A program made the translations under genes and the position numbers. Below, piece by piece: positions 4,439 through 23,644 of a DNA stretch of 64,000 bases; position 1 is the first letter of the stretch; each line of letters begins with the position of its first letter. The notes beneath the pieces were generated by a model. It was not told the DNA's origin, ran no database searches, and saw only the letters and a list, made by a program, of their open reading frames with translations. Source of the stretch: Methylomonas methanica MC09 (GTDB lineage: Bacteria > Pseudomonadota > Gammaproteobacteria > Methylococcales > Methylomonadaceae); NCBI RefSeq assembly GCF_000214665.1, contig NC_015572.1, forward strand, positions 2,976,001 to 3,040,000, read 5' to 3'.

Positions 4439-5368
4439 TTAAGCAGCAACGGTTTTGCGGCGACCGACACCGAGCATGCCGACAACCCCGCTACCGAACA
4501 ACCAGACCGCGCCCGGCACGGGAACAGGGGATGTGGTGACGTTCATTACATAATTGTCGAGTCCGGTATTCCATTTTGAGAAGTTGTACCCGCCCAAATA
4601 AAGAGTGTAAACCTGACCTGCCTGGGCGATAAACGAAAAGTCTTGCGAAGCTGTTACGTCATTGGCGTATCCAATGTTAGTCAATCCCGCAGTTCCAAAA
4701 GGGTCGTCAGCGGTAAAAGCCTTACCTGCTGCAGGATTATTCCAAGAGCCGTGGTGGTTATAGCTTGCAGTGCCGGTATCCATGCCTTCGAACAAGGTCA
4801 CACCGAAAGTGCTGAATGTATCGGGGGTCAAGTTGCCCAAAGTTGCTAAATTGATATGCACGACTTGAGTCACGTCGGATTCGATCAAACCGATATCTGT
4901 TTGATGCTTCCAGCCGGTCGGTGTTATGTTGTCTTGCCATGCGCCACCACCGGTGTCTATTTCCGCTGCTACGCCGTAGCGGGCCAATGAATCCGCGGCA
5001 GAAATTTGACCGGAGTCTCCGGCACCTGTCAGTTGAATGCCCCAGTTTAACGATGACGTTGCGTTAAAGCCGAATGGCGTTGTGCTTGGGCTGGCAGTGC
5101 CGACAAAGTTTGCTGCGCGGGTAGCCGAGTTGTAGTTAACAAAGTTGCCACCGGCGGGCGCGCCAGTATTCGAATCTGCGGCAACATTAGGACCAGCAGC
5201 ACCTGTTTGCGTATTGGCCGGATCGCTCCACACCCATCCGTCTGTTTTACTGCTTAAACCATCGAAGGTATTCATGTTGTACATGGTGGTCGACGCAGCC
5301 GCGGCTGAAGACATTGCCAAGCCAGCGACAGTCAGCGAAATTGCTGTGGCTAATTTTGTTTTTTGCAT
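4439..5368 (-). CDS. Exported protein with VPLPA-CTERM sorting signal
   Basis: A 309-residue secreted protein. It has a signal peptide (MQKTKLATAISLTVAGLAMS... cut near AAA), a low-cysteine beta-rich middle, and a C-terminal sorting tail PVPVPGAVWLFGSGVVGMLG followed by GRRK. This is the VPLPA variant of the PEP-CTERM tripartite signal (motif, hydrophobic helix, basic end), recognised by an exosortase-type system that delivers proteins to the outer surface. The middle contains HQTDIGLIESDV...FEGMDTG...NHHGSWNN, which matches a segment of the protein at 9781-10626 (HNTDFGLIKSAV...FEGMHTG...NHHSIWNAG), so the two are paralogues. The ligand or role is unknown. It has a long upstream region with a CRP-like palindrome and the repeated KGTGATATGNCGCA motif. 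Confidence 0.85.
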   Translation of the reverse strand: MQKTKLATAISLTVAGLAMSSAAAASTTMYNMNTFDGLSSKTDGWVWSDPANTQTGAAGPNVAADSNTGAPAGGNFVNYNSATRAANFVGTASPSTTPFGFNATSSLNWGIQLTGAGDSGQISAADSLARYGVAAEIDTGGGAWQDNITPTGWKHQTDIGLIESDVTQVVHINLATLGNLTPDTFSTFGVTLFEGMDTGTASYNHHGSWNNPAAGKAFTADDPFGTAGLTNIGYANDVTASQDFSFIAQAGQVYTLYLGGYNFSKWNTGLDNYVMNVTTSPVPVPGAVWLFGSGVVGMLGVGRRKTVAA

Positions 5369-5996: not shown

Positions 5997-8156
5997 TTAC
6001 AAGCCGATTTCGGAACAGCTATATAACATGTCAGCCGGCGGCACCACGACCGTTGGCTCTGGAACTGCGCTGGGATCGCAGGTTGCGATTAAAGCCCTCG
6101 CCTGTTCTTTTTGATCCAATGCCAGACTCAATATACGGTTGCGCATGGCTTTAACCGGTGCAAGTAGGGCGAGTCGCTGATAATACTCAGCTTTTTCAAG
6201 TTTCTGCACCGCTTTCCAGTTAGTTCCCAACACCCCCTCTTTCAGTACTCGAATGGCATCTTGATTTTCTTTTCTGCCTAACTTGGCCAATTCACGCGCA
6301 GTCGCGTTATTGGAAATCCGCTTGGCCTGATTATCCAATTTATCGGACTGGCGAATGTTCTCCAATGCATTCAGAGTGCGCAAAAACGAAGCCAGCGCCA
6401 CCACCTGGGTGGAATCCAACTTGACACTCCGGTCTTTATCCTTGGATAGCGACCCAGGCGACGCATTGAAGGCTTCGCTGTTGTACGCGGCAATCGCTTC
6501 CTCCAAAGTACTCACCGCATTGTTATGAAAAAAGGGTGGGGTATCGGCGGCCTCGATCAGCGGCGGGGTATTAAAACGACCGTCGCCATAACACACTTGA
6601 TCGCGATGCGGTCCGCAAGCGCTTTCCGTAACACCGAAACCGCCGTCATAGGCCATATCCGGCACCAACAAGCGTGCGGGATGAATTTTCATGTTTTCAA
6701 CACCTGTGTTACGGGTTGGGTTTGCTTTGGTACTGGAGCTGCGTCCACCGGCATTTTGATGACAACCGTTACAGTTAGCCGTTTGACCGTAAGCGGGTTC
6801 TCCGTCTACCACGGGATTGGTTTTTGTATCGAACAACACTTTACCGGATTCGACCAGAGGATCGTGAAAACTGATCTGATAAACCGGATAATCCTTGCTT
6901 CTACCCAGGGATAACAAATAGGCTTCAATGGCATCGAGTTCGGCATCGCTAGGCAAGCGAAAATCGCTACCCGCTATCCGATTCATGGTTTTCGGCATAT
7001 GCTGTTTGATAGCGCCTTCGGTAAATTCGCGCAATGACCCCGAACCCGGTGCGCCATCACCGCTCCAGCCGGTCGCATGGGCAAAATCTTCATCCTCTGC
7101 AAATTCGCCACCCGCCGCAATGGTTTCTTTTGCAATGGTGGTACTTAAGGCCAGCGTATGCGGCACACTACGAAATATATCGACATTCGGGCCATCCACG
7201 TTCGTCAAAATCAGCCCGTGCTTACGCATCAAAACCGGATTCTCCAGTTCGGCCAACGCCGGATTGGTTTCTGCCACGAATAGCGGGTCTGTTGGCGGCA
7301 AACTCATGATGTAATTAGGGTCCAGCGTGAAATTGTTATCGGCCCGATGACAGGTTCCACAGGTACGCCCGTTACCCGCAAACGTTTCGTTATGGAAAAT
7401 ATGCCGGCCTTTGGCAACCAAACTACCCAGCACGGGAGTTAAATCCGACCGCGTATGGGCTTGCGCCGCCTTGGGCAACAAAAATTCAAAGGGAAAACCC
7501 TTGTCCGCGCCCGTATTCTTGAAATCGCCCATTGCCGTTGTAAGCCACGGCTTATCCGCATAATAGAGTTTAAGCATCAAATCGGGCGTACCGGCAATAA
7601 AGACGTTATCAACAGGATTTTCACCCGCCTTGGAAACAATCACCGTATCCATGTTAAACCCCAGCAACCGACTTCTTTCTAAGGTGGTTTCCAGTCGACC
7701 TTTACCACCCGCCGCTGTAAAACGGCCGAGATGGAGCGTTTTATCGCCTGCTTCCGGCAAGACCGAGCCTTCTAAATTATCAAACAACCATAAGTCGTAT
7801 TCGCCAGCATCAAAGCCTTTGGCTTGAAAAACCAACTCACCGCTTTTCAGATTGAACTGCAACTGGCCGCGTGCTTGAGTCAATTGTTTCGACAAGACTT
7901 TCGAATAACCCAAGGAAAATTTCAGTATTTCGGGGCTGCCGCCTTTGGCTTCGTAATTGGTTCGCCAGCTGTTTAAAGCCAGTTTCAAGGTATCGACATC
8001 GCCATGCCCCACACTGTCGACACTATTGATAGACTGATTAACGTCATTGATAAATAGCTGAAAATAACCGATTGTCAGCGCAAAAACCGCAATCATGATG
8101 CCGGCAAATTTAGTCATTTTTTTTCGAGTAACGTTGAGTTCGTCAACCGGTCTCAT
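5997..8156 (-). CDS. Membrane-anchored di-haem cytochrome c peroxidase/MauG-like protein
   Basis: A 719-residue protein with an N-terminal membrane helix (about residues 17-36), a beta-rich domain (about 75-200) and a di-haem peroxidase-type core. Two c-type haem sites are visible: CGTCH at residues 266-270 and CNGCH at 462-466. Both are followed by peroxidase-family features, including TPPFFHNNAVSTLEEAI, the usual 'pathway to the second haem' segment. The start has a good site, GGAG, eight bases before the ATG. Family members either reduce hydrogen peroxide or, as in MauG and MbnH, oxidise a protein substrate. The N-terminal extension makes it longer than classical bacterial peroxidases (about 330 residues). 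The partner is unknown; neighbouring VPLPA-CTERM proteins are candidates by position only. Confidence 0.82.
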   Translation of the reverse strand: MRPVDELNVTRKKMTKFAGIMIAVFALTIGYFQLFINDVNQSINSVDSVGHGDVDTLKLALNSWRTNYEAKGGSPEILKFSLGYSKVLSKQLTQARGQLQFNLKSGELVFQAKGFDAGEYDLWLFDNLEGSVLPEAGDKTLHLGRFTAAGGKGRLETTLERSRLLGFNMDTVIVSKAGENPVDNVFIAGTPDLMLKLYYADKPWLTTAMGDFKNTGADKGFPFEFLLPKAAQAHTRSDLTPVLGSLVAKGRHIFHNETFAGNGRTCGTCHRADNNFTLDPNYIMSLPPTDPLFVAETNPALAELENPVLMRKHGLILTNVDGPNVDIFRSVPHTLALSTTIAKETIAAGGEFAEDEDFAHATGWSGDGAPGSGSLREFTEGAIKQHMPKTMNRIAGSDFRLPSDAELDAIEAYLLSLGRSKDYPVYQISFHDPLVESGKVLFDTKTNPVVDGEPAYGQTANCNGCHQNAGGRSSSTKANPTRNTGVENMKIHPARLLVPDMAYDGGFGVTESACGPHRDQVCYGDGRFNTPPLIEAADTPPFFHNNAVSTLEEAIAAYNSEAFNASPGSLSKDKDRSVKLDSTQVVALASFLRTLNALENIRQSDKLDNQAKRISNNATARELAKLGRKENQDAIRVLKEGVLGTNWKAVQKLEKAEYYQRLALLAPVKAMRNRILSLALDQKEQARALIATCDPSAVPEPTVVVPPADMLYSCSEIGL

Positions 8157-9780: not shown

Positions 9781-10626
9781 TTAGACCGCTTTGGTCTTCC
9801 TTCGATTAACGCCAATCAAGCCAAGCAGAGCGCTACCAAATAACCACGCTGCCGCAGGCACCGGTACCGCGCTGATATTGACTTTATAAGCGAAAGGCGT
9901 TCCGAAATTATCGCCGTTAATATCATTACCGCCTAAATAAACCGTATATGCCTGACCGGCTTGAGCAAAAAATTCGACATAGCTGCTGTCGCCATGGGTC
10001 AAATAAGTCAATCCGCTTCCGCCAAAAGGATTGTCGGCCATTGCCGGCCCTTCGTTCAAACCAGAAATATAGCCGGCATTCCAGATCGAATGGTGATTGA
10101 TTTCGCCAGTGTGCATACCCTCGAACACGGTAATACCGTAATTAAAAATATTATCGGCCGCATTGACTTTGGAAACTTCGATTCTGACCGTGGTGTCTAC
10201 TGCGGATTTTATTAAGCCAAAGTCGGTGTTATGCGCCCAGCCGCGGGTAAAGCTGGGGTTCTGCGGATCGGCCTGCCAGGAACCCCAGGCACCATTAGCG
10301 GTATCCAGATCCACGACGGCGCCGTTGAACCGGCTGGCTGCATCAGCCGCCGATACTTCCAGAGTTTGGCCGGCATTGTCTATCATGGCCGCCCAGTTTA
10401 ACGCGTGTTTTTCAGGGGTAAAGCCCATGGGTAATGCACCGCCCGAGGTACCCAACCAAGGAATTGGAGTACCGCTAGAAATACCCGACAAGACCCATCC
10501 GTCCAAACCAGGCCAGCTGGCACTGTTATACATAACCTCGGCGGATGCAGAGCCTACCGCACCCAAGGATATCGCCGCGCCTGCGGCGGCCAAGGCAATG
10601 GCTTTAACCAAAACTTTTTGTTGCAT
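9781..10626 (-). CDS. Exported VPLPA-CTERM protein, paralogue of 4439-5368
   Basis: A 281-residue secreted protein with a signal peptide (ending near GSASAE) and the C-terminal sorting tail VPVPAAAWLFGSALLGLIG followed by NRRK. The body shares the blocks WVLSG/WVWSD, NWAAMIDNAG/NWGIQLTGAG, TDFGLIKSAV, FEGMHTGEINHHSIWN, DNPFGGSGLTY and FFAQAGQAYTVYLGG with the 309-residue protein at 4439-5368. They are clear paralogues, although hprA and a di-haem gene lie between them. It has no cysteine or metal-binding motif. The function is unknown; the tail says it is routed through an exosortase-like system to the surface. A copy of the recurrent motif lies about 250 bp upstream. Confidence 0.85.
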   Translation of the reverse strand: MQQKVLVKAIALAAAGAAISLGAVGSASAEVMYNSASWPGLDGWVLSGISSGTPIPWLGTSGGALPMGFTPEKHALNWAAMIDNAGQTLEVSAADAASRFNGAVVDLDTANGAWGSWQADPQNPSFTRGWAHNTDFGLIKSAVDTTVRIEVSKVNAADNIFNYGITVFEGMHTGEINHHSIWNAGYISGLNEGPAMADNPFGGSGLTYLTHGDSSYVEFFAQAGQAYTVYLGGNDINGDNFGTPFAYKVNISAVPVPAAAWLFGSALLGLIGVNRRKTKAV

Positions 10627-10910: not shown

Positions 10911-11624
10911 CTAAGCCTTTAGAGATTGTTTACGTTGCACGCCCAATACACCGGCCAGAGCACTTCCGAACAGCCAAATGGCCGCGGGCACGGGCACCAC
11001 GGTCGCTTCCAGGGTTCCGGTTACCGCGCTGTCGAAATATAGATTCTCGGATTGACCGGCAGACAACACGAAACCGAAGGAATCCACGCCAAACGCTTGG
11101 GCAAAGCCGTCATAAATGGATGTATGAACATAATCGAAGTTATCCAATGCGTAGTTTTCGTTCGAATAGGCAAAGTTGGCATCCGCATCGGCGTATTCGC
11201 CGGCGGACTGCGCGCTTAGCGTGTAGCTAAAATCGATGTTGATATCGAATATATCGTTTACATCCAACGAGATATTTTCAAAAGAAATCAACAAGCTGGA
11301 AAAGTAGTCGCTGACCGCCGCACCCAGCGGTATGCTGTCTTGCGCCTGCAAGGAGACGTTATGCAGCACCCCCAATCCGCTAAACGTCTGGTAATTTGGC
11401 GTATAGCTACTGGAACCGCTTTCCGCGTAATTGCCGGAATCAAAAACATCCGCAATCGATAAAAACTGCATATCGCCATTTGTATTGCGATTGCTCGCAG
11501 TAACCGTATAAGAAAAATCAACATTTCCGCTGTACTGACTGGATGCGTGCGCCGATGTCGCTAATGCCGGCAGCAGCAGGGCAGCCGCTGTTAAAAGCAC
11601 TGATTTTCGATTCAATCTATTCAT
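10911..11624 (-). CDS. Exported VPLPA-CTERM protein, unrelated in body to its neighbours
   Basis: A 237-residue secreted protein with signal peptide (cut after ATSAHA) and the sorting tail VPVPAAIWLFGSALAGVLG followed by QRKQ. The mature part is rich in Ser, Tyr, Asn and Asp and poor in Lys, with short repeats of Y-A-D/N type, as in many surface-exposed beta-sandwich PEP-CTERM proteins. The body does not resemble the paralogous pair at 4439 and 9781. It lies just downstream of the di-haem peroxidase gene (90 bp gap) in the same direction and may be co-transcribed with it. Function unknown. Confidence 0.82.
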   Translation of the reverse strand: MNRLNRKSVLLTAAALLLPALATSAHASSQYSGNVDFSYTVTASNRNTNGDMQFLSIADVFDSGNYAESGSSSYTPNYQTFSGLGVLHNVSLQAQDSIPLGAAVSDYFSSLLISFENISLDVNDIFDINIDFSYTLSAQSAGEYADADANFAYSNENYALDNFDYVHTSIYDGFAQAFGVDSFGFVLSAGQSENLYFDSAVTGTLEATVVPVPAAIWLFGSALAGVLGVQRKQSLKA

Positions 11625-11714: not shown

Positions 11715-13976
11715 TCAAGGCGCCAGGAAAGGCTCGATAGGCGCTGCCCGGCCGCTTGCACCCACGGCCGGCAATACCACTACCGCTTCTTTTGCCAATT
11801 GAGCGGACAGCGCATGACCGGCCTGCACAAACTGATCGTCACCGTCGTGACCGTTGGGCACGATCAACTCGGGGTGGTCGAACGGCGCCTGCTCGTAGCG
11901 CACTCTGTCATCGGTTAAGGTTTTTAGAAAAGCCAGCAAATCGGCGCGCTTCTGGGCGTTGTCACTCATAGGAGTTCGGGTCAAAAAGTCGCTTTGGTTG
12001 CTGTTGTCGAAATTGCCTCCGCGGGCATAAAACTCGATAACTTGCTCCAAGGTCGCCATGCTGCCGTTGTGCATGTACGGGCCGGTCAGTTCAATATTCC
12101 GTAAGCTCGGAATTTTAAATGCCGCTTTCGAACCAATCAGAAACCGCCGATCATCCGGATTGTTAAATGCGGCAATAGCGGCATCAACGGTTGGAATATA
12201 GGCATAATCTGGATCCTGGCAATTCTGGCTGCGCAACGCGATTTCCGCAGCTCCTTCTCGACTACCGTCGGGTTCTCGCTCGGCGGAAAGAGTAAAAAAC
12301 GCAGAAAAATAGATATCAGACCCCAAATCCCAGGCCAGTGGCGACAAAAACTGGCAGCTGTGAATATGTTTGACGGCCTGGTCTTTAACTTCGCTGTCGT
12401 TACCCATTAAATACTGAACATACTGAGCGCTGTAGGACAAGGGTTTGCCGAACTCGTCCACGCCGCCCAATCCGGGGTCGGCATCCGGATCGTTCACCCC
12501 GGTATTGAAAAAGCCGAAATCGATCAACTTTTGGCCTTTTGGATTTCGCGTCACGTCCCGCATCACCACATTGGGCGTATCGGTAATACCGGCATCCTTA
12601 GCCATATCGATAAAGTTTTTACCCATGGCTTCCGGACCGAACGCGCGCAAGCTGTGTTGGGGGCCGAAAAAAGCATTGGGCGTTGGAGTGACTAACAGCG
12701 AATTGGAGACAATGGCATTGGTCGTCATAACCGGCCCCGCATGGCAAAGGTTGCAATGGCTTTCGGTGAACACTTCCATGCCGCGTCTTTCGGAATCCGT
12801 CAGGCTGACCGGCTTGTAGGTATCCGGATCGCGCACGGCGGTATCGATGGGCGCCTGATCGGAAATCAGAGTGGACTCGTACATCTGAATCGCCAATCCG
12901 AAGAACATCGGAAAATTGGCTTCCATCTGCGTATAAGCCAGCCCGCCGGCAGCAGGTGAACCGAAAGCGCCTCGGGTGGTGTTCGACCAGAATTTGGAGG
13001 CAAATGCGGTGCGCACCATATCCTTGTATGTGGTCTTCAAGCCGGGCTGCAGATTGCCTTCGGCGCTGTTGGTCAGGTTCAAGGTACCGAATACACTGTC
13101 CGTGTAGTGTACTTTTTGATATTGCAGTGGTTTGCGCAGCAGCAATTTTCGCCCGATATCGGCGATACTGCGATTGGCGCAAGTCATTTCCAATTGGCTC
13201 ATGGCGGTAGCCACAGCTTGAGAAGCCAAAGCAGAATTTTCCAAATGCAATGCCTGTTTTCGAACCGTACGCCGATTCACTTGCACCCAGACACCGGCGT
13301 TGGGATCGCGGTCACCCCAGTTGTTGCTACCGTTAAACACGTTATTTCCCCGACCGTCCCAGAAACTGCGGTGGTTAAAAACGGCGTTGATTACGCTGGG
13401 CGCGTTTCGGGGTTCTACCCGTCGCGTACCGATACCATTGACGTTGAAGACGGAATCGGCGCTACGCTGGCAATTGTCGTTGCTACCGGTAAATTGGGAC
13501 ACGCCGGTGAACTCGCCGCTGAACGTGCCTGACGACGCGACCGCATCGTCCGTTTCGAAAATTCTGCCGCTGTCCTTATTCAAGGGATCGGCATACCGCA
13601 CCAGGGGAAAATCGGCTGCGGTCAAGGTATGATTCGGTCCACCGTTACCCGACGGCAATGTGTCGAATAAGTTATCGGGATGGGGATTGAGCGTACCGGG
13701 ATTAATTTGATTTTTGACCCGGTTATCCGCGCCCGCATGAAAATGGCAAGACGCGCAAGCCATGCCGTCGCTACCGACGTTGACATCCCAAAACAAAGCC
13801 TTGCCTAATGCAATAGCCATGTCTTTATTGACAATGATCGGATCCTGACCGTCCGTAAGCCCGGGCACCGGCGGAACAGGCACGCCGATTAGCGGCACCG
13901 GCAACGGGCCGTGGGCATACCCCAGCTGAGAAACAACGGCACAACAGGCCGATAATAGAATGACGGATAACTTCAT
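11715..13976 (-). CDS. Secreted large di-haem cytochrome c peroxidase-like protein
   Basis: A 753-residue exported protein with a signal peptide (MKLSVILLSACCAVVSQLGYAHG). Haem sites are CASCH at residues 74-78 and CNLCH at 408-412. The region between them is long, and near the C-terminus is the signature GPYMHNGSMATLEQVIEFYA of the peroxidase/MauG superfamily. At about 80 kDa it has the size of the large surface-associated cytochrome c peroxidase reported from Methylococcus capsulatus, a comparison from memory. It may reduce peroxide or modify a partner protein at the cell surface. The VPLPA-CTERM gene 90 bp downstream is the obvious candidate partner, by position only. A copy of the recurrent motif is about 260 bp upstream. 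Confidence 0.85.
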   Translation of the reverse strand: MKLSVILLSACCAVVSQLGYAHGPLPVPLIGVPVPPVPGLTDGQDPIIVNKDMAIALGKALFWDVNVGSDGMACASCHFHAGADNRVKNQINPGTLNPHPDNLFDTLPSGNGGPNHTLTAADFPLVRYADPLNKDSGRIFETDDAVASSGTFSGEFTGVSQFTGSNDNCQRSADSVFNVNGIGTRRVEPRNAPSVINAVFNHRSFWDGRGNNVFNGSNNWGDRDPNAGVWVQVNRRTVRKQALHLENSALASQAVATAMSQLEMTCANRSIADIGRKLLLRKPLQYQKVHYTDSVFGTLNLTNSAEGNLQPGLKTTYKDMVRTAFASKFWSNTTRGAFGSPAAGGLAYTQMEANFPMFFGLAIQMYESTLISDQAPIDTAVRDPDTYKPVSLTDSERRGMEVFTESHCNLCHAGPVMTTNAIVSNSLLVTPTPNAFFGPQHSLRAFGPEAMGKNFIDMAKDAGITDTPNVVMRDVTRNPKGQKLIDFGFFNTGVNDPDADPGLGGVDEFGKPLSYSAQYVQYLMGNDSEVKDQAVKHIHSCQFLSPLAWDLGSDIYFSAFFTLSAEREPDGSREGAAEIALRSQNCQDPDYAYIPTVDAAIAAFNNPDDRRFLIGSKAAFKIPSLRNIELTGPYMHNGSMATLEQVIEFYARGGNFDNSNQSDFLTRTPMSDNAQKRADLLAFLKTLTDDRVRYEQAPFDHPELIVPNGHDGDDQFVQAGHALSAQLAKEAVVVLPAVGASGRAAPIEPFLAP

Positions 13977-14362: not shown

Positions 14363-15955
14363 TTACACTGTTGGGAGGACATTGCCCGAAACATCCGTAC
14401 AATAACCATAGGCCTCAATATAAGGCTGTAACAGATCGTCGACGGCATCGAATTCCGCCGCATAATAGCGCCAACGCCCGACCGAACTGGCGTACAAAGG
14501 CTGCGAAACCTGACCGAAGCTGGGACTGGCAATAAATTTTTGCCCGGCCTGCTTATAAAACTGGTCCGCTTGTTGATGCCATGCCAAGCCTAAAAACTCG
14601 AACACCCGGCGAAATGTGCCCTGAAAGTCCGCGATACCGTCTTCGTAACGGAACGTCATAACATCCACACTTAGCAACGGTTTGACATGCAGCCACCACC
14701 GCATGGTTTCAGCATACAACTCGGCAGTCGAACGCCAATTGAACAAGTGCACCGTCGCCGCCGACGGAATCATGACTTGCATGTAGCAACTCAGGCAAAC
14801 GTCACGCGGATCTCTTAACATAAAAATCACTTTGGCATCCGGGAACACCGCATTGATCAGGCCGACATCAAAGGTATTCATGGTGGTTTTATCGATAAAC
14901 AATCCCTGTATCGCATGCTCCCCATACCGCTGCGCGGCCAAACGCCAATAGAAATCGCGTAAATGTTGAATGGTGTCCTGGTTGGCTAGACGCAACTGCT
15001 CCGCCACATTATCTTTGACGGAGGACATCCGATTCAGCTCGTCCTTCATCGCGACGACCAAATCGGTTTCGTCCGATATGAACACATTGGGATCAGTGGA
15101 CAGAATTTCCTGAGTCAGTGTAGTGCCGGATCGAAAAAACCCTATCAGAAACGCCGGCGCGCGCTTCTCCTCCCGCCACTTCGCACCGGACCAGCGCCGC
15201 AATAGTTCGGCATCGAAACCGGCTGTATAGGCGGCCAACAAATCATATACGAACCTCGGTTCCTGCTTTTGCACTTCCGGCAAACCGGCCGAGAGCGCCG
15301 CCGCCGCATGCAAATGCTCGAAGACCCGTGCGTATTCACCTTGCTTGTCGTAAATTCTGGCGAGCTCTTTATGAGTGCGAAACGCTTGCTCCTTGCCGAT
15401 CGCCTCCATCCGTAAGATGCGCAATAAGCGTGCAATGGCGGCGGCGTACTCTCCTCTTCCGGCTTCCAGCATGGCATGCTGAAGATTTAATACCGGATCG
15501 TCCGGCGCCAACCGTAAAACCTGCAGACTGGCGGCAAACGCCAGCTGATTTTGATTGAGTCGCGAATACGTATGCGCCAGTAATTGAAACCCCCTGACAT
15601 CCTTTTTGATCTGCACGGCTTGTTTGATCAACTCCAGCGAGCCGGGGTAATCGTTCCAGAACTGTAATTGTTCCACCAGCAGCAACAACTGCCCGGTATC
15701 TCGCTGTTTTCGGCAGGCCTTCGCCAACAAGGCACCTGCCTTGCGCAAATACTCGATGCCCAGGCTGTGCTGTCTGATCCAACAAAGCGCCTGCCCGTAA
15801 CAGGCCATGGCTTGGGCATCTTTTGGATTCTCCCGCACGGCTTTTTCAAACCAACCGACCGCCTCGGTCATATTCCGGGCGTTGACAGCTGCCTGGCCGT
15901 TTTTTAAATAGGGGGATATACCGGAAATTGCTGCAGGTTTTTTGACTGTATCCAT
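14363..15955 (-). CDS. TPR-repeat sulfotransferase-family protein
   Basis: A 530-residue cytosolic protein of two halves. Residues about 15-250 are tetratricopeptide-like repeats (AAVNARNMTEAVGWFEKAVR, KDAQAMACYGQALCWI and further helices). The C-terminal half is a PAPS-dependent sulfotransferase-fold domain: PAFLIGFFRSGTTLTQ is the 5'-phosphosulfate-binding loop and FMLRDPRDVCLSCY the 3'-phosphate-binding segment. Such fusions are common in bacteria, and their acceptors (glycan, protein tyrosine or small molecule) are mostly unknown. No signal peptide is present. It is the last gene of a run of minus-strand surface-protein genes, which hints at modification of exported material, but that is inference. 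Confidence 0.8.
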   Translation of the reverse strand: MDTVKKPAAISGISPYLKNGQAAVNARNMTEAVGWFEKAVRENPKDAQAMACYGQALCWIRQHSLGIEYLRKAGALLAKACRKQRDTGQLLLLVEQLQFWNDYPGSLELIKQAVQIKKDVRGFQLLAHTYSRLNQNQLAFAASLQVLRLAPDDPVLNLQHAMLEAGRGEYAAAIARLLRILRMEAIGKEQAFRTHKELARIYDKQGEYARVFEHLHAAAALSAGLPEVQKQEPRFVYDLLAAYTAGFDAELLRRWSGAKWREEKRAPAFLIGFFRSGTTLTQEILSTDPNVFISDETDLVVAMKDELNRMSSVKDNVAEQLRLANQDTIQHLRDFYWRLAAQRYGEHAIQGLFIDKTTMNTFDVGLINAVFPDAKVIFMLRDPRDVCLSCYMQVMIPSAATVHLFNWRSTAELYAETMRWWLHVKPLLSVDVMTFRYEDGIADFQGTFRRVFEFLGLAWHQQADQFYKQAGQKFIASPSFGQVSQPLYASSVGRWRYYAAEFDAVDDLLQPYIEAYGYCTDVSGNVLPTV

Positions 15956-16202: not shown

Positions 16203-19049
16203 CTAAAACATATAACTCCATTTGGCAGACAAGGCACCTTCGCGTTCCAGCTGTACGCCGTTGACATTGTCCTGCAGCGGCTGTATCCACTCCACGCTAA
16301 AAGTATTGCCGGCCAAGTCGCCCCCCGGAATGGTGGCATTCAACCCCATGCCGATATCCCAGTATTTACCGCCGTGGTTGGCTGGCGTATCCATGGTACC
16401 GACAGGCACATGCAGACGATTGTATTCGCCGTGCAGCGAATCGTGGGTGGTATAAATGCCGCGTACCGTGCCGCCCAGCCAATCCAGAAACTGATAACTG
16501 CCCCAGGCGGTGGCCTGCAGCATGTCGCCCAATCTATAGCCGGATTCGTTGTGATTTTGCAGCCTTTTAATGCCCTGTATTTGCGCGCCCCAGCCCCAAT
16601 CATCGTGATGCCCGGTATAGGTCAGACTGGGGGTAAAATCCCAAGTGCCGCTGCCTAATTGCATGCCGTAATGGATAAAACCTAAATCGAAGCCATGGTT
16701 AGGCCTCAAATGAATGTCGACATCGCCTGTCGGCGCAGACACACCCAAACCCATGTGAACATGGTGCCGCTTGTCGTCGTACAACTTGACCAAAGCCGAG
16801 ATATTGGTATCGCCAATGCCTCCGGTCTGATGCTCATGGCCAGTGTGATTTAGAGCCGCCCCTGTTATTGAGGATGTGGCAGAAGGAATTTGACTTTGCG
16901 GTATACCGCCAAGCTGCCGCATATTCATGCTCATATCCATGAAGGTCGGCATCAGCATAAGGTTTAGCCAATCGGTCGGCGCATACATCACCATAAACAT
17001 ATGCATGTGCATAGTCATGTCGGTAGGCGTAACAAAGCACTGCGTACCCGCGCAATTAGGATTACGAGCTGCGTTATTAAGCGTGATAGCCGTATCGGCA
17101 ATCGGCTGACTACCTTGCAGCATATTCCCGGCTTGACGGTTATACATATATTGATAACCGATCATCCAGTCGTCAGCCATATCCAACATATGTCCGAACA
17201 TCAGACCTGCTGGTTGTGCGCCACCGTGCTGATGGTGACGATGGTGGTGGTGGTGGTGCCCCCCACTGGAATCAGCCAGACTGCGCCCAAGAGTATCCAA
17301 ATTGACTTTCAATGCCGCATTGGCGGAATAGGCGGAGAAATTCGCATAGCCGCCCTCGCCTCCGCCGCCCAATCTTAGGCCACCCTGATGGGTGTAATAT
17401 TCAAACCCCATCTCCAGGTTTAAGCCTTGGGCAAACTGCTTGTTGACAACAACGCCGCCGCTTAATGCGCCATAGGCGGATAAGCGGTGATCGCTGGAAA
17501 AATTCGGGTATTGGCGTACCAGATTACGGTAATCCGCTTCATTATTTACATTTCCCGAACCGGCATTTTTCAACACCAAAAACGGATGATAAAAATCCGC
17601 CGCGCTTTGGCTGTAATAACGAATGGTGGGCGTGACCGTCAATCCCCATGGAAGAGGTTGTACCCATTTGCCTTCAAAGGTGTGAGCATTGATACCCCAA
17701 TCATCGAAAAAATAGTTATATTTCAAATTCATCGCCGCATCCAGCGGCTCAACATGTTGCACATAGCGCAGATTCAGGTTCACCTGATTCCGTTTATTTG
17801 GCCGTTGTTCCGTGAATGCCGTAACCTGAGAGGTATATAAACCACGGTCTGCGTCAAAAGAATTAGGATCAACAAAAAAAACATACGTAGCTTTGTAAGG
17901 ATTTTCCATAAAGCCGCTACTATGCGTATACCCGACCCCTGCTTCGGCCAACGCACTCTTGCTCAAAACTTGCGTTAGACTGATATTAGTTGCAATATCC
18001 TCTCGCTTGCCGTGGAGTATCGCATTGCCACCGGATAATGGATCGACGAAGCGCTCTATATAACCACTGTCACCCTTGCCATTCAATTGATAGCCTATAG
18101 ACCCTAGATACGGCAACGAGTCATGATCCAGCAATGCGGACACCGTACTATTGGTATAACTTTGGCTAAAATTTAAGGTCGTCAGTTTATTGTTAAAGTC
18201 TAGCCGGCCGCCCCAATTAACAAAGCGCGATTCATAATCGTTTTCTACTGAAAGACCACCGCCTAAATCCACTGCAGCTTCGTCCCACTCATAGCTCAAT
18301 TTAAAATCCCCCTGCTTACGGGTTTCGGGCGAGGCCATGGTTAAGGTGTGAGTAAGTTGGTTAGCGGGTTGTTTATCAACTAGGGTATCGAAACTGGGAA
18401 CTGCAAGCCCATCTCTGCGCAACAAGACTGGATTAAATTGAGCGTCGAAAGCAAGGTCGAGACTGTTCAACTGCGGCGTTGCGCCTGTAATCGTTTGACC
18501 AATTTCAGCATCGCTATGCGAACCGTCGGATTGTAAAACGAATGGCTGATTTCCACCAAACGCAGCCGGAGCAGTAGCAACAGGCGTTGCTCCGGACCAA
18601 GTGTCTTCGGTGTAATTCGCAGTAAATTTCCAGCGGTCTCTTAATGTGGTTTTAGCTTGGGCATGAATAGTATCAACTGTAATAGGTGCGAACTGTCCAG
18701 GCAATTTTTTTACTACATTTTCACCGCCTATAAAGGAATCAGAGTTGACATTACCATTCAATGGCCCATAAATATCCCGTTTTGCTTCTTCATAGTGCCC
18801 ATACTGAATTGTCACTTCATCATCGGCCGCGTGAGCTAATGTCGGAGTCAATCCAGGTAAGAATAACGCTGCGGTAGTCAAAGCCTGTAAGGCGGGACTA
18901 ATTCGATTGGCATTAGAAGAGGACAAGTTGCTGGCTTGTTGAGGTTCAGTACTACCAGTGATCTGTAAAGAAAACATAGCGTTGCAACGGATCGAACTAT
19001 ATCGCCTTTTCGACTTTTCGTGAATAAGCGCAGCAATTGCAGCTTTCAT
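16203..19049 (-). CDS. DUF3570-type outer-membrane beta-barrel fused to a Met/His-rich second barrel-like domain
   Basis: A 948-residue outer-membrane protein. I place the start at the ATG at 19049 (MKAAIAALIHEKSK), 7 bp after the DUF4266 stop; the longer open frame from 19163 would overlap that gene. A hydrophobic export segment ends near THAHAADDE-like sequence (LTPTLAHAADDE). Residues about 80-575 look like DUF3570 (YGHYEEAKRDIYGP, many alternating strands). At about 595-610 is an almost pure histidine run. Beyond it, DMTMHMHMFMVMYAPTDWL and MPTFMDMSMNMRQ match the Met-rich 'MetA-pathway/transporter' barrel type often seen near metal genes, and the protein ends in an aromatic (WSYMF), as barrels do. 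It forms a block with the DUF4266 lipoprotein and TlpA protein. Confidence 0.75.
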   Translation of the reverse strand: MKAAIAALIHEKSKRRYSSIRCNAMFSLQITGSTEPQQASNLSSSNANRISPALQALTTAALFLPGLTPTLAHAADDEVTIQYGHYEEAKRDIYGPLNGNVNSDSFIGGENVVKKLPGQFAPITVDTIHAQAKTTLRDRWKFTANYTEDTWSGATPVATAPAAFGGNQPFVLQSDGSHSDAEIGQTITGATPQLNSLDLAFDAQFNPVLLRRDGLAVPSFDTLVDKQPANQLTHTLTMASPETRKQGDFKLSYEWDEAAVDLGGGLSVENDYESRFVNWGGRLDFNNKLTTLNFSQSYTNSTVSALLDHDSLPYLGSIGYQLNGKGDSGYIERFVDPLSGGNAILHGKREDIATNISLTQVLSKSALAEAGVGYTHSSGFMENPYKATYVFFVDPNSFDADRGLYTSQVTAFTEQRPNKRNQVNLNLRYVQHVEPLDAAMNLKYNYFFDDWGINAHTFEGKWVQPLPWGLTVTPTIRYYSQSAADFYHPFLVLKNAGSGNVNNEADYRNLVRQYPNFSSDHRLSAYGALSGGVVVNKQFAQGLNLEMGFEYYTHQGGLRLGGGGEGGYANFSAYSANAALKVNLDTLGRSLADSSGGHHHHHHRHHQHGGAQPAGLMFGHMLDMADDWMIGYQYMYNRQAGNMLQGSQPIADTAITLNNAARNPNCAGTQCFVTPTDMTMHMHMFMVMYAPTDWLNLMLMPTFMDMSMNMRQLGGIPQSQIPSATSSITGAALNHTGHEHQTGGIGDTNISALVKLYDDKRHHVHMGLGVSAPTGDVDIHLRPNHGFDLGFIHYGMQLGSGTWDFTPSLTYTGHHDDWGWGAQIQGIKRLQNHNESGYRLGDMLQATAWGSYQFLDWLGGTVRGIYTTHDSLHGEYNRLHVPVGTMDTPANHGGKYWDIGMGLNATIPGGDLAGNTFSVEWIQPLQDNVNGVQLEREGALSAKWSYMF

Positions 19050-19056
19050 AGGCTTA

Positions 19057-19269
19057 TCAATAGCAGCCACAACCGCCTCCCGCACCGGAACCACTGGTAG
19101 TGGCAGCCTCTCGGCTTCCGTAGACATGGCCGCGGAGCTCCGTTTGCAACGGATTCGGCTCAAGCGCCATTTGCGGCTTCGCTAGAGTACCACGTTCCCA
19201 GGGCGCGACCGAGCAACCGCCTTGCAAAAAGGCAGACAGCACCGCGACAATGATTAGCAGGTAATTCAT
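19057..19269 (-). CDS. DUF4266 small lipoprotein
   Basis: A 70-residue protein with a lipobox (LQGGC, Cys19). The family core follows: VAPWERGTLAKPQMALEPNP, then HVYGSREAATTSG, and the C-terminal glycine-cysteine tail GGGCGCY. The length and the terminal GGGCGC are typical of DUF4266. Its gene is 7 bp before the DUF3570-type gene, so they are co-translated. The family is known to me only as a constant neighbour of DUF3570; its biochemical role is unknown. The invariant Cys pair at the very C-terminus suggests metal or redox function, which is inference. Confidence 0.88.
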   Translation of the reverse strand: MNYLLIIVAVLSAFLQGGCSVAPWERGTLAKPQMALEPNPLQTELRGHVYGSREAATTSGSGAGGGCGCY

Positions 19270-19346
19270 GGCGTTATGCTCATATCAATTGATAAGCAAA
19301 AATATACAGTGGCTTAACTGAATGGTTTGAACTCACCTCGGTTACC

Positions 19347-19850
19347 TTAAGGTGACTCGTGCAAGAGTTCTTCCACTTGACTTCGCAGCGTTTCGACCTC
19401 GCTACCACGAAACCCTAAATGAACATAACGGACAATCCCTTTACGGTCGACCAAGTAAGTGGACGGCATGGCCTGAACATCGAATATCTTGGCGCATTGA
19501 CTTTCCTCATCACGCCCAAGTTGAAATGAAGCGGGTAAGTCTTGTAAAAAATGCTCGGCATCGGCAACATCTTCATCCACATTCACTGCAACAATGTGCA
19601 ACCCGTTCTGCTTTAACTGGTCGTGCAAGCTGTTCATAAAGGGAAAGGACTTAGCACAAGGACCACACCAGGAAGCCCAGAAATCGATATAAACCACCTG
19701 CCCACGCAGAGATTGAAAGTCGATCGGAACCTTGTTGGGATATGCAAATATTCGGCAAGCAGGTACCTTCTGCCCGACCTCCAAGGCATACGCCTCTGTC
19801 AACCAAAAGAATAAAAGCAGAAGGATTCGAATTAACAGCCGATATTTCAT
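19347..19850 (-). CDS. TlpA-like periplasmic thiol-disulfide oxidoreductase
   Basis: A 167-residue thioredoxin-fold protein. The N-terminus (MKYRLLIRILLLLFFWLTEAYA) is a signal peptide. The active site is WCGPC with cysteines 62 and 65 in DFWASWCGPCAKSFP, followed by LHIVAVNVDED and the cis-proline region AMPSTYLVDRKG. It probably keeps exported thiols reduced, for example the terminal cysteines of the DUF4266 lipoprotein whose gene is 77 bp downstream. The two genes and the DUF3570 gene run in the same direction and likely form one operon starting here. Confidence 0.88.
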   Translation of the reverse strand: MKYRLLIRILLLLFFWLTEAYALEVGQKVPACRIFAYPNKVPIDFQSLRGQVVYIDFWASWCGPCAKSFPFMNSLHDQLKQNGLHIVAVNVDEDVADAEHFLQDLPASFQLGRDEESQCAKIFDVQAMPSTYLVDRKGIVRYVHLGFRGSEVETLRSQVEELLHESP

Positions 19851-20197
19851 AGTGGATTATTATTGTGCGGGCAATTAATTTTGCAGATATTAAGATACAT
19901 GATGTGACTTGACCCAGCTAACAAAATACACCCACGCTAAGATATCAACGCGGACAAGCTACCAGTTCACAATTGCCGGCGGCCTACCTCACCTGTTATT
20001 TCTTTCAATTACACTCAAGAAAAAATGGCCGAGAATTATACCTTTAACTTGACGGTTTTTAGCAACTAAAAACCACTGAGTTTCGACTAAATTGGATCGG
20101 AAGCTAGATCAGAACAAACAAGGGCACACCGAAAAAACCAGACTGAATTATACAAAAGCTTGCTGCTCCGTTTGATCGAAACAGCAAGCCGATAAGA
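19851..20197. other. Intergenic region upstream of the TlpA-DUF4266-DUF3570 operon
   Basis: 347 bp with no gene seen. It contains the terminator of the preceding gene at its right edge and must hold the promoter of the operon starting at 19850. Confidence 0.5.
20150..20189 (-). terminator. Terminator of the small exported-protein gene
   Basis: GCTTGCTG (20158-20165) pairs with CAGCAAGC (20182-20189). Read on the minus strand the stem is followed by TTTTGTATAATT. It lies 9 bases past the stop of the gene ending at 20198. Confidence 0.75.
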
Positions 20198-20650
20198 TCA
20201 GTTATCTTGAATAGCCGAGCCCGGCGTGGTGGTTGGAGTGTGGTCGCCCGTAGCACTCTCACAATGGTACTCAATGTTGTATAATTGAGTTATAGGCTTG
20301 GTGTAATTCACGATCATCAAATAATCACCATTTCCACCATTTAGTTCGACCAACGGACTCATCGTACTGTCTCCACCAACCGGATCAACGGTAGTGATGG
20401 CGTTATTGCCTTTTACGATAACCAATGGCAACGAATTTTTATCGTTACTTCGATCCAAAATCTGTGCCGCCAAATGATGACTATCCCCCAATAAAGCGTC
20501 CCCACTACAGGTTACTTTCCAAACATCTGTGGCCGAAGCACCAAATGTTTGCCTCAATGTTTTAGTTGTCAAACTATGACCAAATGCTGTATTTACAGAC
20601 ATTATTGTCGATACAAATAAAAAAACGGAACTCGCTTTATTCAGTTTCAT
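20198..20650 (-). CDS. Small exported protein of unknown function
   Basis: A 150-residue protein with a signal peptide (MKLNKASSVFLFVSTIMSVNTAFG). The mature part has two cysteines (VTCSGD and YHCES) that could form a disulfide. Its pattern of short strands with the segments WKVTC, LVIVKG and YLMIVNYTK suggests a small beta-sandwich, and it ends with a Thr/Pro tail. I do not recognise the family. It has its own terminator and sits between the TlpA-DUF4266-DUF3570 operon and the HEAT-repeat gene, all on one strand, so it may belong to the same system. Confidence 0.6.
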   Translation of the reverse strand: MKLNKASSVFLFVSTIMSVNTAFGHSLTTKTLRQTFGASATDVWKVTCSGDALLGDSHHLAAQILDRSNDKNSLPLVIVKGNNAITTVDPVGGDSTMSPLVELNGGNGDYLMIVNYTKPITQLYNIEYHCESATGDHTPTTTPGSAIQDN

Positions 20651-20721
20651 ACTTAATTTCCTGATTTATATTAAATGTCTGATCCTCCGCCGATTAAAGC
20701 TGGAATCATTCAGTTGAACGC

Positions 20722-21582
20722 CTAATTTTCCAGCTCCTCGAGCCGGACTTTGGCCAATTGCCGTACAGCATTGTCACTATCCTGAGATGCCTGACGCAGT
20801 AACAAAGGTTCAACAGACAACTCAACAGCCCTTAAACGAACCGAGGCTACAGGATCATTGATCGCTTGATACAGTTCAGGAATGGCCGCGTCAGCCCCAT
20901 ACAATCTGACCCACCCACCTAAAGCCTGCTCGCGTACTAAAGCAGAGGCATCCTTTAAACCGTTGCTGAGCACATCATCTACATCGTCCGCGCCAGTTTC
21001 CGCCAAAGCATATAAAGCGTTACCCCGCTGCCGAGGGTCATTACTTCCAGCCTGCTCCCGCAGGCGCTGAATTTCCATTTCTCTGCCAAGTTTATCGCCT
21101 GAAACGACAACGTCAGGCTTTAAACATTCCAACGATGTTTTAGTTGCCGCGGTACTGCCGAGTATCCAAACCTCGCTGGGAACCCCTCCCTGCCTTGGGC
21201 CGAACACCAAGTTCACCGACTCACCCAGTAAGCACTTCAAGAGACTGGGCAGATTATCGGCGGCACAAGTAGCCGACACTGGCTTTTCCGCTGTAAGGCT
21301 ATGATGAATAATCACACCACTGTCAGCCTGCAACGTTTGCAGAATTGCAGGCAAAGCTACCTGCTCCGCCTGCAATTGCCAAGCACTTGGCCCGTGCCCA
21401 TGCCCATGCCGAACAAAAACGCGTCCGATAGACGATGCTTCCGCAGCTACGACCGGGACCGCAGTCAAACATGTCAACGCGACGCACTTCAGTTTATCCG
21501 AAACCGCTTTACCAATGAACCCAGCCAAAACAAGCTCTGTTGCAGCCTTAAACGATGTTATTTTTGCGACGCGACAACCCAC
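20722..21582 (-). CDS. STN-like plus HEAT-repeat protein
   Basis: A 286-residue protein. Residues about 65-145 (LQAEQVALPAILQTLQADSG ... SLLKCLLGESVNLVFG) resemble the STN domain found at the N-terminus of secretins and TonB receptors. Residues about 175-285 are HEAT-like helical repeats (RQRGNALYALAETG, LVREQALGGWVRLYG, SVRLRAVELSVEPLL, AVRQLAKVRLEELE). A hydrophobic stretch at 33-47 could be a signal sequence behind a long N-region; the annotated ATG overlaps the end of the upstream VPLPA-CTERM gene by 35 bp, and a TTG at codon 19 is an alternative start. Short His/Gly repeat HGHGHGP follows the signal. Likely a periplasmic scaffold; partner unknown. Confidence 0.65.
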   Translation of the reverse strand: MGCRVAKITSFKAATELVLAGFIGKAVSDKLKCVALTCLTAVPVVAAEASSIGRVFVRHGHGHGPSAWQLQAEQVALPAILQTLQADSGVIIHHSLTAEKPVSATCAADNLPSLLKCLLGESVNLVFGPRQGGVPSEVWILGSTAATKTSLECLKPDVVVSGDKLGREMEIQRLREQAGSNDPRQRGNALYALAETGADDVDDVLSNGLKDASALVREQALGGWVRLYGADAAIPELYQAINDPVASVRLRAVELSVEPLLLRQASQDSDNAVRQLAKVRLEELEN

Positions 21583-22252
21583 CTAAGCCGGCAACGGCAC
21601 TAGCAAACAACCAAACTGCACCCGGCAAAGGTACTGCAGAGACCGCTGCGACATCACCATCAACGAACACTTTGAAGGCGTGAGGCTGGGTTTTATCGCC
21701 GAAAGGAAACTCAGACCATCTTTCAAATCCTGGCAAACCTTCAACACCTACGTAACTAGGTATATCAACGTATCCTTCTTCGAAGGTTGTGCCAACGCCT
21801 TGTTCCGCATAACTCTGATACCATTGGCTTGAGTTAACCAGTAAATATGTGCCTTGCGTAAGATCCAAAACCTTACCCTCGTCCGAAACACCGGGACTAT
21901 TGGAGTCTTGAAAAACAAAACCGTTTTTAAGCGCAACCCCAAAATCATTCAAACCCGTAGTGTTATAGTCTAAAACTACATCGATAGCCGATTGGGCTCC
22001 ATCACCAAGCGCCTCAACATAATCGTAAAAACCGGTCGATTGATTATGCTTGAAAAGGGTCAAATGATTATCCAAACCATTCGTCAAAGTATCCGACCAC
22101 ATGCTCACCGAGCTATCGCTTAGCACGTCGAAACGAAATTCCTGTAGATCGAAGTCGCCGAAAAACGTGTCGTCAAACTCCAACTGCGCCGCTTGCGCGG
22201 AGCCGATTGACATGCCCAGCAAAGCTACTGCCGCAAATTGCTTAATTTTCAT
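21548..22252 (-). CDS. Exported VPLPA-CTERM protein
   Basis: A 234-residue secreted protein starting at the ATG at 22252 (MKIKQFAAVALLGMSIGSAQA), which has GGAG eight bases upstream; the longer frame from 22309 lacks a site. The mature part is rich in Asp, Phe and Tyr, beginning AQLEFDDTFFGDFDLQEFRFDV, and the C-terminus is VPLPGAVWLFASAVAGLGG followed by SRRK, the textbook VPLPA sorting tail. The body resembles generic FxDxY PEP-CTERM folds but not the other members in this window. It overlaps the STN/HEAT gene by 35 bp and is probably translated from the same message. Function unknown. Confidence 0.83.
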   Translation of the reverse strand: MKIKQFAAVALLGMSIGSAQAAQLEFDDTFFGDFDLQEFRFDVLSDSSVSMWSDTLTNGLDNHLTLFKHNQSTGFYDYVEALGDGAQSAIDVVLDYNTTGLNDFGVALKNGFVFQDSNSPGVSDEGKVLDLTQGTYLLVNSSQWYQSYAEQGVGTTFEEGYVDIPSYVGVEGLPGFERWSEFPFGDKTQPHAFKVFVDGDVAAVSAVPLPGAVWLFASAVAGLGGLSRRKNNIV

Positions 22253-22735
22253 ACTGTCTCCATAAATTAAAAAAACCAAAACCAACCCTGTCTCAATGTT
22301 GACGCACATAATAGTGCAACATCCAAGCCATTCAATAGCATTATCTATAATAGCTTATAATAATCAATTATTTGCACATTAAACGGAATGCTAATTATAT
22401 CTTTATTTGACGAATTTCCTACCAAACCACGCACTTATTTCTATAAAAAATCGGCATATAACATAGGTTAATTGCGTTATATAACATAGTTCATTAACTA
22501 GCAATCTAACACTATTAGTCCGCCGACTCTTTATTCATTGCTTTCTATCAAGATAAAACCACCCACCCGGCAAATTGTTACATTGATCCGTCCTGATTAT
22601 GACGAATCTGCAACTTCTGCCCTGTGAAGGCAACCCTACTTGATCGGCGTCTCGAATTGGCTTAGTCTTTAAACAAAGATTATTACCCCATCGGCTTTCG
22701 GCTCCCTTTTACACCTCGGCACCTGTCATTAGGCT
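22253..22735. other. AT-rich intergenic control region
   Basis: 483 bp, clearly more AT-rich than its surroundings and without a gene. It contains the direct repeats listed at 22457-22489 and separates the minus-strand block from the plus-strand apbE-like gene. Confidence 0.55.
22457..22489. repeat. Direct repeat TATAACATAG, two copies 23 bp apart
   Basis: TATAACATAG occurs at 22457-22466 and 22480-22489, each followed by a similar GTTAATT / TTCATTAA stretch. A spacing of about two helical turns puts both copies on one DNA face, as for a tandem operator about 210 bp upstream of the VPLPA-CTERM start at 22252. Confidence 0.5.
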
Positions 22736-23644
22736 TTGAACGCACTCAACCGGCAACACTTTCATTTCAATTTCAAAGCCATGGGTACGCCGTGCGATTT
22801 GCAATTGTTTGCACCCGACCCCGCCACCGCGCAAAAAGTCGCCGACTTGGCCATTCAGGATATTCAACGACTGGAACGGAAATATTCCCGTTACCGGGAC
22901 GACAGCCTGTTATCGGATATCAACCGGGTTGCAGACCAAGGCGGCAGCATCGCGGTGGACGAAGAAACCGCCGGTTTGCTTCATTACGCTGACGCCTGCC
23001 ACCAACAAAGCGACGGCCTGTTCGACATTAGCTCCGGGTTGTTACGCAAAGCCTGGCGTTTCGATAAAGGTCAATTGCCGGAGCAAACATTGATTGCGTC
23101 ACTGCTGGAACGGGTGGGCTGGGAGAAAGTACGCTGGTCGCCGCCTGAATTGACGTTTTTAGTGCCGAACATGGAGCTGGACTTTGGCGGCATCGTCAAG
23201 GAATACGCGGCCGACCGGGTGGCTACACTATGCCGGCAAGCCGGTTGCCGGCATGGCTTGGTGAATTTGGGCGGGGATGTAAAGATCATTGGCCCGCGCA
23301 TGGACGGCCAACCCTGGCGGATCGGTATCGCTCACCCGCGCAACAAAAATGCCTTGTTGGAAAGCCTGGCTCTGCATCAGGGCGCGGTGGCCAGCAGCGG
23401 GGATTATGAACGCTGCATTATCATAGACGGAAAACGCTACAGCCACGTGCTGAATCCGAAAACCGGCTGGCCGGTCGGCCACTTGACTTCGGTCACCGTG
23501 ATCAGCGACCACTGCGTGATTGCCGGCAGTGCGTCCACTATTGCCATGCTCAAGGAAGTTCAAGGTCCGGTTTGGCTGAAAGATTTAGGCTTGCCGCATA
23601 TCTGGACGGATATTCAGGGTCGGCAAGGCGGCTCGATAACATAA
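22736..23644 (+). CDS. ApbE-family FAD:protein FMN transferase, divergent variant
   Basis: A 302-residue protein of the ApbE family, which attaches FMN from FAD to a threonine of exported redox proteins. Family blocks are F-KAMGTPCDLQLF (13-25), LDFGGIVKEYAADRV (148-162), GLVNLGGDVKIIG (174-186), ASSGDYERC (219-227) and YSHVLNPKTGWPV (235-247). A stop codon lies one codon upstream of the TTG at 22736, so TTG is the only start that keeps the AMGT block. There is no signal peptide, unlike many ApbE proteins. The usual KGYA reads KEYA, and the usual metal-binding Asp of the ADALST block is Gly264 (VIAGSASTIAML). I know this family as a frequent neighbour of DUF4266/DUF3570 genes. It may be a divergent subfamily rather than inactive. 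Confidence 0.82.
   Translation: MNALNRQHFHFNFKAMGTPCDLQLFAPDPATAQKVADLAIQDIQRLERKYSRYRDDSLLSDINRVADQGGSIAVDEETAGLLHYADACHQQSDGLFDISSGLLRKAWRFDKGQLPEQTLIASLLERVGWEKVRWSPPELTFLVPNMELDFGGIVKEYAADRVATLCRQAGCRHGLVNLGGDVKIIGPRMDGQPWRIGIAHPRNKNALLESLALHQGAVASSGDYERCIIIDGKRYSHVLNPKTGWPVGHLTSVTVISDHCVIAGSASTIAMLKEVQGPVWLKDLGLPHIWTDIQGRQGGSIT

Follow-up and report, generated by a model that had tools for sequence, protein, structure and literature searches.

How copper crosses the outer membrane of gammaproteobacterial methanotrophs and ammonia oxidisers that lack methanobactin is, to our knowledge, an open question. A gene cluster of Methylomonas methanica MC09 offers a candidate answer. It lies at positions 16203 to 23644 of the window, the 64,000-nucleotide stretch of contig NC_015572.1 analysed here, and its longest gene joins a DUF3570 barrel to a second, methionine-rich barrel. 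We judge the chances to be about even that this cluster encodes an outer-membrane flavin redox module for Cu(II) reduction and copper handling, probably uptake, for copper monooxygenases. The core of the cluster (TlpA, DUF4266, DUF3570 and ApbE) is already known; what is new is the fusion, two unclassified families of exported proteins, and the clustering of these genes with its restriction to certain genomes. An earlier reading made from the letters of the window (the sequence-only reading) had named this four-gene set, and it was borne out: every module open reading frame (ORF) stands in the ORF listing of the window where that reading had placed it, and the Pfam scores of DUF3570, DUF4266, Redoxin/AhpC-TSA and ApbE are all far above their cut-offs. 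The genes and one further element are as follows.

16203..19049, minus strand: DUF3570 barrel fused to a Met-rich COG4313-like barrel; the 986-residue ORF reaches TTG 19163, and the likely start is ATG 19049
19057..19269, minus strand: DUF4266 small lipoprotein with a C-terminal GGGCGCY (Pfam, 76.3 bits)
19347..19850, minus strand: TlpA/ResA-like exported thioredoxin with WCGPC (Pfam, Redoxin 76.7 bits, AhpC-TSA 67.8 bits)
20157..20190, minus strand: terminator-like hairpin, 14 pairs followed by a T-rich stretch, 3' of the small exported gene and 5' of tlpA
20198..20650, minus strand: small exported protein (EXP150) of an unclassified family, with a predicted mature N-terminal His
20722..21582, minus strand: exported HEAT-repeat protein (HEAT_2, 29.5 bits) with an N-terminal part that looks STN-like by eye
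21548..22309, minus strand: PEP/VPLPA-CTERM-like exported protein (18.9 bits to TIGR03370)
22736..23644, plus strand: ApbE FMN transferase without signal peptide (Pfam, 255.7 bits), divergent from the others

From upstream to downstream on the minus strand, the order is thus PEP-CTERM-like, HEAT, small exported, TlpA-like, DUF4266 and long DUF3570.

A predicted double barrel in a probable flavinylation cluster

The fused ORF contains a DUF3570 match of 428.7 bits (Pfam), with residues 93–612 forming the DUF3570 barrel and residues 613–986 the Met-rich, COG4313-like barrel. Its opening codon, TTG 19163, lies inside the DUF4266 gene, and ATG 19049, directly after the DUF4266 stop, is the likelier start. 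The sequence-only reading had described a His/Met-rich double barrel, and this description held, as the His/Met-rich second half and a His-rich linker are present in the sequence and the AlphaFold2 model of the fused protein has two barrels (pLDDT 83). Multi-barrel outer-membrane proteins are known computationally. A PDB sequence search with the 986-residue protein returned weak matches only (E at least 0.019), the greater part of them near the His-rich linker. The second domain of the window protein had no Pfam match up to E 10, PF13557 included; some of its relatives have a precomputed match to PF13557.

A profile search of genome contigs with the second domain gave 356 loci, of which we kept the best 80; the ranking was by similarity to the query, which skews the taxonomic make-up of these loci towards that of the window. 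They come from Methylococcales genera or Methylococcaceae, from Nitrosomonas or Nitrosomonadaceae, or from proteobacterial metagenome-assembled genomes (MAGs; 10 of the 80). The fused ORF clustered in 78 of them, some copies being cut by contig ends; in L111 it is broken into several frames, and in L146 it is cut by the contig start. We aligned the window protein with 67 of the 80 fused ORFs (alignment A3, 68 proteins) and found that position 112 is Thr in 68 of 68, and position 148 Ser in 54 and Thr in 14. These are the predicted flavin-target residues, which lie in the motifs SGAT and TGAT of the window protein. The strict four-residue [S/T]GA[S/T] motif is present at the first site in 54 of 68 proteins, at the second in 33, and at both in 29. 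The second barrel has 13 positions, out of 350, at which Met is conserved at 90% or more, and the first has 0 out of 526; 9 of the 13 fall in two strands around an APTDW turn (630–646 and 652–669). In strands 585–603 and 630–646 the Met residues lie on the more polar side. A further alignment (A1) combined the window domain with 15 of the best 120 of 594 matches.

The nearest fused protein, from Methylomonas sp. WSC-6, is 83% identical. In a midpoint-rooted tree of the 68 proteins, all 16 rows of the Nitrosomonas group fall into a single clade (support 99) that neighbours the methanotroph rows, a pattern compatible with transfer. The DUF3570 fusions of six loci (L034, L038, L055, L065, L067 and L069) are 1085–1396 residues long, with inserts of about 300–600 residues after the first flavin motif and no second motif seen in their DUF3570 half. 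In L053 (genome G032) the unit of DUF4266 and fused DUF3570 occurs three times in tandem, one of them split into two ORFs. A possible further fusion in genome G206 (an 808-residue frame) was rejected, as its locus has no DUF3570 match, and a search with the window domain found a second-barrel gene beside a short DUF3570 gene in 0 of 11 loci of the short type.

The sequence-only reading had described DUF3570 and DUF4266 as neighbours with no assigned function, which is out of date because Meheust et al. (2021; PMC8238504) demonstrated ApbE-dependent flavinylation of a DUF3570 protein at two [S/T]GA[S/T] sites. They describe clusters of ApbE, DUF3570 (227 with DsbD), a thioredoxin-like protein (PF13899, 183 clusters) and DUF4266, together with a further 316 clusters without DsbD, and propose a thioredoxin/flavin system fed by DsbD. 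The window shares with these clusters the two motifs in DUF3570, the CXC-tailed DUF4266, a thioredoxin-like protein and a nearby ApbE, but differs in the fusion of DUF3570 to a second barrel, in the extra N-terminal-His and HEAT proteins, and in its thioredoxin, which is of the Redoxin/AhpC-TSA type: it gave no PF13899 match at E ≤ 0.01, its matches being to Redoxin, AhpC-TSA, Thioredoxin_8 and others. It also differs in having no DsbD gene (PF02683) adjacent to the module. The PF02683 places of the genome lie outside the window, one of them behind a second copy of the system (G000, C1:187–192 kb), in which TlpA, DUF4266, DUF3570 (427 residues), ApbE and DsbD stand in a row, the canonical form. 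The C-terminal GGGCGC that had been noted in DUF4266 is in the sequence, followed by Y; it is conserved in 43 of 43 aligned DUF4266 sequences and supplies the C-terminal CXC that DUF4266 also has in the flavinylation clusters. In the TlpA family Cys32 and Cys119, besides WCGPC, are kept in 99–100% of 71 sequences and form a possible second redox pair.

The ApbE ORF opens with TTG 22736, immediately behind a stop codon. By a crude rule a signal peptide was found in 0 of 57 ApbE relatives; the conserved AMG motif lies 9–35 residues from the ORF start in 49 of 54 relatives, later in 3, and at the very start of the ORF in 2. ApbE lies on the same strand, within 1.5 kb downstream of the fused gene, in 40 of 70 relatives. 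From the lack of a signal peptide we infer a cytosolic ApbE that serves an outer-membrane barrel, FMN being attached before Sec export. According to a 2025 review (PMC12052999), most ApbEs are secreted and cytosolic ones exist, one target being a soluble fumarate reductase; a cytosolic ApbE in this system, if true, raises the question of how FMN-bearing outer-membrane proteins are exported.

Conserved neighbours and copper-monooxygenase genomes

Across Methylococcales and Nitrosomonas the module genes are repeatedly clustered on one strand, more than expected by chance. Upstream sequence of 5.5 kb or more was available for 53 fused loci. Of these, 51 have same-strand DUF4266, 48 the small exported protein and 46 TlpA; 38 have a second N-terminal-His family and 25 the HEAT protein, so that the recurrent association described in the sequence-only reading is not random. 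All 12 Nitrosomonas-group loci among the 53 carry DUF4266, TlpA, the small protein and the second family, and one of the 12 carries HEAT; HEAT relatives clustered in 35 of the 80 loci, all on the same strand, and the HEAT protein is found mostly in methanotrophs. In a set of 54 loci, made up of relatives and the genome's own second copy, 42 were of the fused type, 11 of the short type, and one (L045) had DUF4266 only.

The small exported protein has a predicted cleavage site between AFG and HSL (by eye), which would leave a mature N-terminal His. We collected 66 relatives from the 80 loci (above 38 bits and shorter than 200 residues) and found, from the cleavage-site motif, His at mature position +1 in 62 of them. 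A crude predictor placed His at +1 in 46 of 83 members of this family and 43 of 53 of the second, versus 3 of 189 other ORFs. When the window protein was aligned with 57 of the 66 (alignment A2, which leaves out two of the four without +1 His, all of them included in the 62 of 66), C24 and C106 (one Cys pair, mature numbering) were invariant and H1, H105 and H113 were conserved at 90% or more. Its AlphaFold2 model is a beta-sandwich of jelly-roll/PPC-like fold (pLDDT 96.1). An N-terminal His is a hallmark of copper His-brace sites (PMC8424229). The small protein resembles His-brace proteins (CopC, the PCuAC domain of PmoF, YcnI/DUF1775) in being exported and in having a predicted mature N-terminal His and further conserved His residues, but may differ in its predicted fold and has no supporting family match: Pfam gave no match up to E 0.01 and a sole chance match at E 0.1, and the family profile gave a single PDB match at E 0.64.

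The second N-terminal-His family, also unclassified, is present in 50 of the 80 loci, and its profile has no PDB match up to E 5. An assignment to YcnI/DUF1775, guessed by eye, was dropped, as 24 members gave matches to 8 families up to E 10 and DUF1775 was none of these. In L229 both N-terminal-His families are joined in one 368-residue protein. Alignment A4 held 24 of 62 sequences.

We then asked which genomes carry these genes, using a sample of 369 genomes of the class that is less biased than the 80 loci, though the profiles derive from the same organisms. PF02461 (PmoA/AmoA) was found in 11 genomes, DUF4266 in 90, relatives of the second barrel in 63, the fused type in 4 (ORFs of 904–992 residues), the small protein in 4 and the second N-terminal-His family in 5. 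The four genomes with the fusion are exactly those with the small protein (G000, which is the host of the window, G308, G233 and G382); they belong to three families and all carry PF02461 (hypergeometric probability 4e-7 among the 369 genomes and 6e-6 among the 90 with DUF4266, 6 of which have PF02461, both uncorrected for shared ancestry). Among the genomes behind the fused loci, we checked 50 of the 80, hand-picked before any result, and found PF02461 in 41. The nine misses (L093, L101, L104, L106, L109, L112, L123, L138 and L159) are all MAGs or bins belonging to Nitrosomonas, Methylobacter or unnamed kin.

Peripheral genes and the rest of the window

Two further proteins had been counted by the sequence-only reading as parts of an expanded set. 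Of its STN/HEAT protein the HEAT part stands (29.5 bits versus a cut-off of 27.7), whereas profile scans of the protein at 20722–21582 gave HEAT only and no STN match. The sorted VPLPA-CTERM surface protein did not keep its place in the core: the protein at 21548–22309 scores 18.9 bits, below the TIGR03370 cut-off of 25.35, and 68 relatives in 30 loci score 17–32 bits apart from two, which reach 72 and 279 bits and each come from a Methylomonas-like locus. It is a peripheral, poorly conserved partner. The hairpin at 20157–20190 has the longest stem of the terminator-like sites (19 found versus 11.8 expected) and may leave the small exported protein in excess.

A MauG/MbnH-like diheme gene lies near the module at 11715–13976 on the minus strand (CCP_MauG, 54.4 bits). 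MopE/CorA systems with MauG-like enzymes provide surface copper binding in related methanotrophs (PMC3423442, PMC3912023), and the presence of such a gene is a likeness; it occurs, however, at 21 of 42 fused loci, 0 of 11 short-type loci and 3 of 80 in the larger set, and was set aside as a module part. Set aside with it was a gene for a protein with tetratricopeptide repeats (TPR) and a sulfotransferase domain (14363–15955, minus strand, 110.6 bits), which recurs near many fused DUF3570 genes of the genus. Judged by eye, a second large heme-protein-like gene lies at 5997–8156 (minus strand) and PEP-CTERM-like proteins also at 4439–5368, 9781–10626 and 10911–11624. A TonB-receptor-like gene, again by eye, is split over two overlapping ORFs at 44507–46821 (minus strand), with a similar uninterrupted gene nearby at 38682–41114 and repeated FecR- and sigma-factor-like genes. 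Serine-cycle-like genes, named from reading the sequence, flank the locus.

Proposed role in copper handling

The sequence-only reading had pointed to metal or thiol chemistry at the outer membrane. The thiol and metal theme and the redox character of the cluster survive, and copper is indicated in place of an unspecified metal, because the fusion and the small protein are confined in the class sample to genomes with PmoA/AmoA. In the mechanism that we propose, ApbE would link FMN to the DUF3570 half at its two Ser/Thr target residues, probably while the protein is still in the cytosol. Extending the proposal of Meheust et al., electrons would pass from a DsbD-type protein encoded elsewhere to the TlpA-like thioredoxin, the CXC tail of DUF4266 and the barrel flavins. 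Reduction of Cu(II) by the flavin may then take place at the outer membrane or within it, Cu(I) may cross the fused barrel along the Met ladder, and the exported N-terminal-His proteins may bind periplasmic copper and deliver it to the monooxygenase.

Two observations weigh against this copper-monooxygenase module. Seven of the 11 PF02461-positive genomes of the class sample have neither the fusion nor the small protein, and the second N-terminal-His family is also matched in G359, a genome without PF02461. There, on contig C383, a fragment of that family (17–142, plus strand) precedes a stand-alone barrel gene (590–1513) on the same strand by 448 bases; this pairing supports a working link between the second family and the barrel but loosens the tie to copper monooxygenases.

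The alternative that survives best, which we nevertheless consider unlikely, is general flavin electron export or envelope thiol redox control, with the second barrel acting either as a COG4313 channel that passes hydrophobic molecules or as a secretion pore of the FapF type, whose cargo might, for example, be the small exported protein. The fold of the second barrel agrees with a COG4313/PF13557 channel. Compared with such channels (4rl8) and with FapF, however, it has a Met ladder, a His-rich linker and fusion to a DUF3570 barrel, and a non-metal channel does not account for the linker, for the N-terminal-His partners or for the conservation of Met at thirteen positions.

Copper detoxification or efflux, in which the module reduces or exports periplasmic copper, appears somewhat less likely again. 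CusA/CusB-like genes occur at 3 of 20 loci with a stand-alone barrel (L205, L211 and L214; by clustering, and for CusA by reading and clustering), and L214 has the order CusF (87 bits), barrel, OEP, CusB-like, CusA-like. The gene caller had missed the barrel ORF in two of the 20 (L197 and L205). A channel might conduct in either direction, but the hosts have a high copper demand and a reductant would increase Cu(I), the more toxic form. A RegB-like kinase cluster occurs at 7 of the 20 loci, with one member scoring 224 bits to the ActS/PrrB/RegB model, under its cut-off of 350. These Cus-like and RegB-like neighbours also bear on the main reading, and the copper link that they give the second barrel is suggestive, not strong.

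Iron, where Fe(III) would be reduced by the flavin barrel at the cell surface and Fe(II) would travel through the second barrel, is the least probable reading: VIT1 occurs in 25 gene clusters and iron reduction is suggested for DUF3570 clusters with VIT1 (PMC8238504), but the Met ladder and N-terminal His fit copper better, the class sample restricts the fusion to PmoA/AmoA genomes, and no iron transporter was recognised by eye among the neighbour clusters shared by four or more of the 80 loci, most of these clusters being unscanned.

In the literature searched we met no outer-membrane copper route of this kind. More tentatively than for the copper module itself, the sequences hint at a TonB-independent copper acquisition common to methane- and ammonia-oxidisers. 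One polypeptide would unite a barrel that reduces Cu(II) by means of flavin with a Met-lined channel for Cu(I); it would be fed by a relay of thioredoxin and CXC lipoprotein, work with two new families of N-terminal-His copper chaperones, and receive its flavin in the cytosol, ahead of export. A flavin-driven copper route can be tested directly with the named genes, with the residues T112, S/T148 and H1 (the last in the small protein), with the Met ladder and with the genome-wide pattern, and DUF3570/DUF4266 systems gain a candidate metal.

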